DNA of 64,000 nt, taken from an archaeon. GTDB lineage: Archaea; Micrarchaeota; Micrarchaeia; Anstonellales; Bilamarchaeaceae. Under the pieces are notes generated by a model, which was not told the origin of the DNA, did not search any database, and saw only the letters and a program-made list of their open reading frames with translations. The stretch covers positions 1-64,000 of the forward strand of contig JAGVNI010000003.1 of NCBI GenBank assembly GCA_020053355.1, read 5' to 3'. Position 1 is the stretch's first letter. Each line of letters opens with the position of its first letter. Positions 36,378 to 57,447 of the stretch are shown here, one piece after another. The position numbers and the translations under genes are program-made.

Positions 36378-37457
36378 TCACCGGGTGACGTCCTTCACGT
36401 TCAATTGCTCGAGATGCTCCTTGTTCTTCGCGAAATACTCGCGGCTTGGTTTCAGGATTTCCGCGAGTTCCCTTGCGACCGCGCCTTTTAGGTCCATCGG
36501 ATGGAGCTGGCCTTCCTGGTAAATCGTTTTGAGTTCTGCCGCGTCGGCGATGTCCAAATCCCCGCCGAATTTCTGCGGGCGCTCGATTTTCATGCCCTTG
36601 TCGCGGAGGACGAGGTATTCCGCATACTCCAGCACAGGGTTGCCTTCGACAGTCTTCTCAGGGCAATAGGCCTTCTTGATTTTGGAGTTGATTTCCTCGA
36701 CCGAGTCGTGAATGAATATCGCGCTGGAAGGGACGCTCTTGCTCATCTTGGCATCGATTGAGGCGGTCTCCTTCTCCTCGCCTTTCGCATCGGGATTCAT
36801 CCTCTGCGCGCCCTGGAGGCCCGGGAGGAGATGGCCGTGCACCGCGATGAAATCCCGCTTGTACGTATGCGAAAGCTCCCGGGCAAGCATGTGCACTTTC
36901 CGCTGGTCCATGCCAGCATGCGCTATCTGGACATCCAGCATGAAGATGTCCGCGGCCTGCATCGCAGGGTAGAGGATGGATGCTGCGGATGTGGCTTCGC
37001 TCTCTTTCCGCCCCATGATGGTGATGCACCGGAGCATGCGGTTGATTGTCGTGTCCTTGGTGATTTTCAGGACCTCTTTCCAGTAGTCGTTGTCGTAGAG
37101 GTCGCTTGCCAGCACGTAGTCCACGCGCCCGTCTTCCAGGCCGAGCGACACGAAGGCGTGCTTGAAGTAGCCTTTCGCGACTTTCCGGATTTTGTCCAAA
37201 TCCCCGCCCAGTTTCTCGTTGATGTAGGAATGGTAGTCGGCCAGGAAAACGGTCGGCTTGATGCCGGCCTGCAGGAAGTCCTTCAATTTGATTGCCGTGC
37301 AGAGGCCGGTGCCCAGGTGCACCATGCCGGATATCTCGAATCCGATGTAGTGGAGGGGGTGCTCGTAATTTTCGAAAATGCGCTGGAGGTCTGCCTCGGT
37401 AACGATTTCTTCGGTAGGCTTTCTCTTGACTAGGTCGATTTTGGTCTGGATGTCCAC
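36378..37457 (-). CDS. tyrS: Tyrosyl-tRNA synthetase (archaeal type)
   Basis: YIGFEISGMVHLGTGLCTAIKLKDF...DYHSYINEKLGGDL...IDAKMSKSVPSSAIFIHD. Confidence 0.95.
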   Translation of the reverse strand: MDIQTKIDLVKRKPTEEIVTEADLQRIFENYEHPLHYIGFEISGMVHLGTGLCTAIKLKDFLQAGIKPTVFLADYHSYINEKLGGDLDKIRKVAKGYFKHAFVSLGLEDGRVDYVLASDLYDNDYWKEVLKITKDTTINRMLRCITIMGRKESEATSAASILYPAMQAADIFMLDVQIAHAGMDQRKVHMLARELSHTYKRDFIAVHGHLLPGLQGAQRMNPDAKGEEKETASIDAKMSKSVPSSAIFIHDSVEEINSKIKKAYCPEKTVEGNPVLEYAEYLVLRDKGMKIERPQKFGGDLDIADAAELKTIYQEGQLHPMDLKGAVARELAEILKPSREYFAKNKEHLEQLNVKDVTR

Positions 37458-37542
37458 GTGCTCACCTAGTGTCCCATGCGCGAAGGATTATTTAAAAGTT
37501 GGTAACATAGAATTATCCATCAATTGCCTCTGTAGCTCAGTC

Positions 37543-37610
37543 GCGCTTTTTGAAAAAAAGCGCCCAAAAAACTTTCATTAAGTTTTGGGGCGCCTTTTAC
37601 TAAAAGGCGC
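37543..37610. repeat. tRNA-Thr D-loop insertion: three consecutive hairpins
   Basis: A: GCGCTTTTT-GAA-AAAAAGCGC (37543-37563); B: CCAAAA..CTT..AAG..TTTTGG (37564-37590); C: GCGCCTTTTA-CT-AAAAGGCGC (37590-37610). Confidence 0.8.
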
Positions 37611-37637
37611 AGAGCATTGGTAGAGCGGCTCTCTTGT

Positions 37638-37720
37638 AAACTTTTTAGGAAAAAGTTTAATCAAAAACCGGGACGTTATAGCAAACCCGTTTTTGGGGTG
37701 CCTTTTTCCTAAAAAGGCAC
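37638..37720. repeat. tRNA-Thr anticodon-loop intron: three consecutive hairpins
   Basis: A: AAACTTTTT-AGG-AAAAAGTTT (37638-37658); B: CAAAAAC(C)GGG..CCCGTTTTTG (37662-37695); C: GTGCCTTTTT-CCT-AAAAAGGCAC (37698-37720). Confidence 0.8.
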
Positions 37721-37776
37721 AAGGAGCAGGTCGGGGGTTCAATCCCCTCCGGAGGCTAATCCTTATTTTAAAAAAA

Positions 37777-57241: not shown

Positions 57242-57300
57242 CCCAATAATCCATGAGGCAAAACACAAGACCTGAAACTGGGAACAAATGGATTATTGGG
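57242..57300. repeat. 13-bp perfect inverted repeat at tRNA-Val 3' boundary
   Basis: CCCAATAATCCAT (57242-57254) and ATGGATTATTGGG (57288-57300). Confidence 0.9.
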
Positions 57301-57447
57301 CCCGCGCGGGATCGAACCGCGAATCTCCCGCGTGTGAGGCGGACGTCTTAACCAATGACGGAGCCGGAGGCGCATGGCCTCAGGCCTTTTTCCAGGGTTT
57401 TTGGCGCAAGTTTAACCTATGCCAAAAAGCCTTTCGACTACGGGCCC
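57297..57447 (-). tRNA. tRNA-Val(CAC) with D-loop insertion
   Basis: Acceptor GGGCCCG/CGGGCCC, anticodon arm TCCGC-CTCACAC-GCGGG, T-arm CGCGG-TTCGATC-CCGCG, discriminator A; ~79 nt insertion between D-stem strands GTC and GAC. Confidence 0.85.

Follow-up and report, generated by a model that had tools for sequence, protein, structure and literature searches.

The window, that is, the whole stretch of 64,000 nucleotides that was analysed, comes from a Micrarchaeota genome of 1.59 Mb in 20 contigs (G000). Beside a divergent tyrosyl-tRNA synthetase gene it carries a tRNA-Thr(UGU) gene that is split into three exons. Both introns are built from one hairpin module of ~41 nt, with one copy at each end, the 5' one antisense and the 3' one sense. 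Matches to the module were obtained with a covariance model (R1) that was built from 20 copies, its E-values resting on a shortened calibration. The features of the locus are:

36378-37457, minus strand: open reading frame, tyrosyl-tRNA synthetase by reading; divergent neighbour and anchor for the orthologous tRNA-Thr loci
37526-37757, plus strand: tRNA-Thr(UGU) gene; spliced exons called tRNA-Thr(tgt) by ARAGORN
37526-37540, 37618-37639 and 37723-37757, plus strand: the three exons
37541-37617, plus strand: intron 1, 77 nt, D-loop, after A14-G15; strict bulge-helix-bulge (BHB); absent from the orthologues L078, L079, L081 and L082
37542-37582, minus strand: antisense module, 5' end of intron 1; R1, genome-wide E 1.6e-4; left out of model building
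37571-37611, plus strand: sense module, 3' end of intron 1; R1, E 2.4e-7; included in model building
37640-37722, plus strand: intron 2, 83 nt, anticodon loop, 38/39 or equivalently 37/38; relaxed BHB; absent from L079 and L081; boundaries slide by up to 2 nt owing to A repeats
37637-37679, minus strand: antisense module, 5' end of intron 2; R1, genome-wide E 6.0e-5; left out of model building
37678-37719, plus strand: sense module, 3' end of intron 2; R1, E 1.1e-6; included in model building

When both introns are cut out, a 72-nt tRNA with all stems intact results. In the unspliced gene no tRNA was recognised by ARAGORN or Rfam, which speaks for a pseudogene that was hit by repeats. However, the exons are fully kept in the closest relative, Micrarchaeota archaeon PMV_4.13 (93% identity of the neighbouring synthetase), where the tRNA-Thr gene beside the same synthetase (L078) is identical to our spliced exons at 72 of 72 positions, and most other tRNA genes of the source genome are split likewise. 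A pseudogene is hardly credible under these circumstances. Judged from its sequence, the stretch 37526-37757 is probably a functional tRNA-Thr(UGU) gene into which two BHB-type introns of a lineage-specific mobile-intron family are inserted.

The relatives differ in the introns they carry. L078 has no D-loop intron and an anticodon-loop intron longer than the 83-nt one; the orthologous tRNA-Thr genes in L079 and L081 have no intron whatever, that in L082 bears a short intron in the anticodon loop, and further combinations occur in other relatives. As regards a target-site duplication, the few empty and filled tRNA-Thr sites compared show at most an A-repeat ambiguity. Rfam at gathering score gave no match in the window to the group I and group II introns, and a homing intron with a LAGLIDADG nuclease was ruled out because introns of 77 and 83 nt leave no space for a nuclease gene. 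A second split tRNA gene of the window, tRNA-Val(CAC) at 57298-57447 on the minus strand, has a D-loop intron of ~75-80 nt with T- and A-run hairpins, in which the module model stays below threshold.

The module consists of TTARCRANYCNGTTTTGG followed by a hairpin of the form NNNNN-UUUU-CCU-AAAA-NNNNN. In 55 copies from relatives, aligned without use of structure, 98.4% of the hairpin cells are paired; double-sided changes were counted in 81 cells compared with 20 ± 7 after shuffling, and the covariation score is 0.443 compared with 0.137. One-module introns have a near-constant length of ~50 nt and occur in either orientation, with same-size examples both ways in the anticodon loop, while two-module introns have an antisense copy 5', a sense copy 3' and a variable middle. 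The earlier note had read each of the two insertions as three hairpins (A, B and C). The hairpin sequences it quoted are present at the positions it gave, the covarying pair GCGCC/GGCGC versus GTGCC/GGCAC is real, and a repeat search recovered the local hairpins as well as, in imperfect form, the large palindromes that it had described. The energy minimum of each insertion is one long hairpin. In 27 two-module introns, however, local pairing of the end hairpins holds at 239 of 270 stem positions and pairing across the intron at 131 of 270, no better than with re-dealt partners (144 ± 7). Separate hairpins A and C are thus the conserved form, and a single long hairpin per intron was rejected. 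Kissing loops between the complementary AGG and CCU of the end hairpins were rejected as well because several introns have non-matching loops.

Archaeal tRNA introns, those at non-canonical positions included, are spliced at BHB motifs. At the junction of intron 1, GCUC of the D-stem and GAGC of the intron 3' end form the central helix, with the bulges AGU and AUU. At intron 2 the helix is UUGU:GCAC with only three of four pairs formed, an inner helix CUUUUU:AAAAAG and the bulges AAA and AAG; this imperfect BHB is a point against the explanation that we prefer. It had been suggested that the anticodon pairs with ACA at the intron 3' end. The pairing UUGU:ACAA can indeed be noted, but as a BHB it fails, since the cut would fall inside the exon, and the BHB that is consistent with the exon sequence uses UUGU:GCAC, which is the 3' arm of hairpin C. 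Across the family, a BHB score of at least 11 is reached by 87% of 47 anticodon-loop introns compared with 10.6% when the introns are shuffled, and by 75% of 24 D-loop introns compared with 24%. Where a sense intron sits in the anticodon loop, the 3' arm of its hairpin C doubles as the BHB strand that faces this loop. Therefore, the hairpin fold and the BHB fold exclude each other, and this exclusion may matter for the element.

The genome encodes two PF01974 genes, and one of the products, with 394 amino acids, gives a full-length match to the ARMAN-2 epsilon2 endonuclease structures 4fz2 and 9w2k (E 1e-129). According to PMC12397907 and PMC4033280, epsilon2-type endonucleases accept BHB motifs and other intron forms at various, non-canonical positions. 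The introns are probably spliced in the cell.

Whether the two introns of the tRNA-Thr gene are related was difficult to judge from the pair. Only 1 of 2000 dinucleotide shuffles is as similar as the two insertions are; if the controls are granted the shared hairpin and T-run architecture, 21% of them reach this similarity, so that the comparison of the two insertions by itself is weak. The latter control is the point in favour of independent hairpin insertions that are alike only through the limits set on sequence by AT runs and palindromes. The relatedness of the introns is settled by the genome-wide family. A scan of the genome with a covariance model had been suggested, with the absence of further copies set beforehand as the refuting outcome; it returned 30 module copies in the source genome at E ≤ 0.1, with E down to 1e-11, 26 of them inside tRNA introns as judged by a tRNA-chain finder and by reading. 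Other tRNA genes of the genome also bear look-alike introns, and the 5' modules of both tRNA-Thr introns, although absent from model building, were still found genome-wide, which bears out the homology that the earlier note had proposed for the two insertions. Matches recur in congeners (15 of 17 at E ≤ 0.001, in addition to both genomes of the sister genus), are nearly always located in tRNA introns and are confined to 26 of 303 genomes in a sample of the phylum Micrarchaeota. Independent insertion of hairpins is already contradicted by this distribution of copies, and we give it almost no weight.

Four copies in the source genome have other settings:

C5:31895: module copy outside any tRNA
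C5:112233 (L182, G000:C5:112233-112274): module copy directly upstream of an intronless tRNA-His gene
C17:35220: module copy near tRNA-Ser
C10:4677: weak module copy

All genomes are metagenome-assembled, with an estimated completeness of near 60-95%, and, given the search filters, the copies counted are minimum numbers. We used a tRNA finder of our own; among 200 random pieces, 4 reached a score of at least 37 and may be real tRNAs, and multi-intron tRNA genes are penalised by the finder's score. A search of viral contigs with two exact patterns gave no match, and a viral source of the module was rejected on this basis. Several loci met in the searches have features of their own. The tRNA-Arg(UCU) gene at G000:C15:60738-61010 on the minus strand (L062/L166) has three module-bearing introns, one each in the D-loop, the anticodon loop and the T-loop. 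At G000:C2:69177-69520 (L031-L033), tRNA-Gly(UCC) precedes a tandem array of partial copies of its 3' half, with AAAGTTTCATCAAA-type repeats. In an order-level relative, L206 (G050:C16:48878-49070) is a series of similar T/A-run intergenic hairpins in which no tRNA was recognised by reading.

The fetched loci of the source and related genomes contain 161 module matches, of which 84 were placed automatically: 31 sense and 30 antisense in the anticodon loop, 6 sense and 13 antisense in the D-loop, and 3 sense and 1 antisense in the T-loop. Among the other 77, most of those inspected by reading lie in multi-intron tRNA genes. One module (L222, G014:C81:1808-1848) lies within an archaeal 23S rRNA gene and is probably an rRNA intron, and the matches L243 and L248 are outside any RNA recognised by Rfam. 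Such targets, namely structured BHB-forming RNAs in the form of tRNA loops and 23S rRNA, would suit a spread via RNA, in which endonuclease and ligase splice an excised intron back into a further tRNA or rRNA, and a DNA copy of the product is recombined into the genome. The precision of the insertions, with no evident target duplication at the few sites compared, fits this route too. However, at one and the same loop, asymmetric one-module introns are found either way round in similar numbers, and copying through the host RNA strand would not be a direct source of them. We regard the RNA route as unlikely.

Signs of movement come from a congener (G014). Between its D-loop intron in tRNA-Lys(UUU) and its anticodon-loop intron in tRNA-Thr(CGU), 101 of 118 aligned positions are the same, a likeness that extends to the variable middle and includes paired changes in both hairpins, and the introns of tRNA-Gly(GCC) and tRNA-Glu(CUC) agree at 102 of 115. 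As introns this similar reside in different tRNAs and loops, introns have moved. In the same genome, the D-loop introns of two tRNA-Lys genes (L216 and L217) are near-identical, the differences being paired changes in their end hairpins. The nearest neighbour of an intron is the intron of another tRNA in 58 of 76 cases and that of the same tRNA, loop and orientation in another genome in 15 of 76. Thus, part of the family was inherited vertically, and both vertical inheritance and transfer took place. The introns common to orthologous tRNAs of different genomes could be due to gene conversion among tRNA genes, or recombination between them, together with vertical inheritance, with no dedicated mobile element involved. 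The transfer between the Lys D-loop and the Thr anticodon loop, however, has no common flanking exon for recombination, and we think this explanation quite unlikely. What the earlier note suspected, mobile introns or a structured element that moves into tRNA loops, is supported by the genome copies and by the cross-tRNA introns of the congener; the case for mobility is nevertheless wholly comparative.

No transposase or nuclease was found to track the copy number of the module when Y1 and LAGLIDADG proteins were compared across genomes. The Y1 transposase (PF01797) is absent from the source genome and from the copy-rich G009, and was rejected as the mover. LAGLIDADG nucleases are widespread, many of them in long frames that resemble inteins, and were rejected too. 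A LAGLIDADG-like gene broken across two frames (G000:C15:39363-40023; L183, 1611-2271) was seen directly upstream of a module-bearing split tRNA gene.

The family, its structure, its positions and orientations, the transfer between tRNAs, the conservation of exons and the presence of the endonuclease can all be read from the sequences. Movement would take place at the DNA level by a putative activity. In the precursor tRNA, the adjoining exon would pair with the intron 3' end to form a BHB, which the epsilon2-type endonuclease would cut and a ligase would seal, so that a tRNA loop would tolerate an insertion with little damage. The end hairpin of sense anticodon-loop introns would pair through its own 3' arm (GCGG, for example) with C32-U33-N34-N35, and thus one element could fit many tRNAs. 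We tentatively speculate, and regard it as possible rather than probable, that the module is a miniature mobile element of a new kind whose only regular home is RNAs spliced at BHB motifs: it would move as DNA in either orientation, the host endonuclease would remove it from RNA, and its alternative folds, end hairpins or BHB, would serve these two stages.

Short, non-coding palindromes with inverted terminal hairpins and many copies are known from bacteria and archaea as MITE and REP elements. The Micrarchaeota module is similar in being short, non-coding and multicopy with inverted end hairpins; in contrast to these elements, its copies lie within spliced RNAs and not mainly in intergenic regions, and a Y1 transposase is missing from the source genome. 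Transposition of tRNA introns has been described in Thermoproteales (Fujishima et al. 2010, as related in PMC4090602 and PMC4033280), with a mechanism given there as unknown (PMC4090602). Both cases share the occurrence, within a single genome, of introns that resemble each other closely and belong to different tRNAs (here in G014). As far as these descriptions go, the Micrarchaeota family is set apart by its phylum, by a defined covarying hairpin module in both orientations and often as an inverted pair, and by introns in T-loops and 23S rRNA. ARMAN-1 and ARMAN-2 belong to the same phylum, have the same endonuclease type and several introns per tRNA, but the accessible text of PMC4033280 and PMC12397907 describes no common mobile intron family. 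In Caldiarchaeum, a threonine tRNA gene, tRNA-Thr(GGU), likewise has one or two introns that vary within the population; these are at positions 24/25 and 45/46 and were ascribed to a proposed 1.8-kb element with a recombinase, with no hairpin family (PMC3293823). The Asgard archaea Atabeyarchaeia and Freyarchaeia also have most tRNA genes split, often by several non-canonical introns, while the available portion of PMC11291895 reports no intron family or mobility. In the literature searched, which covered few subscription papers, we found no tRNA-intron family in Micrarchaeota.

In conclusion, the Micrarchaeota family is a structured, bidirectional variant of the known transposition of tRNA introns, in another phylum. 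For the question of how introns arise in archaeal tRNA genes, this family provides a second lineage with movement. Due to its many copies, a unit that can be searched with a covariance model, filled and empty sites in close genomes, insertions of either orientation and recent copies that occupy different loops, movement at the DNA level and at the RNA level can be tested against each other. The family supports the idea that an endonuclease of broad specificity lets tRNA introns spread.
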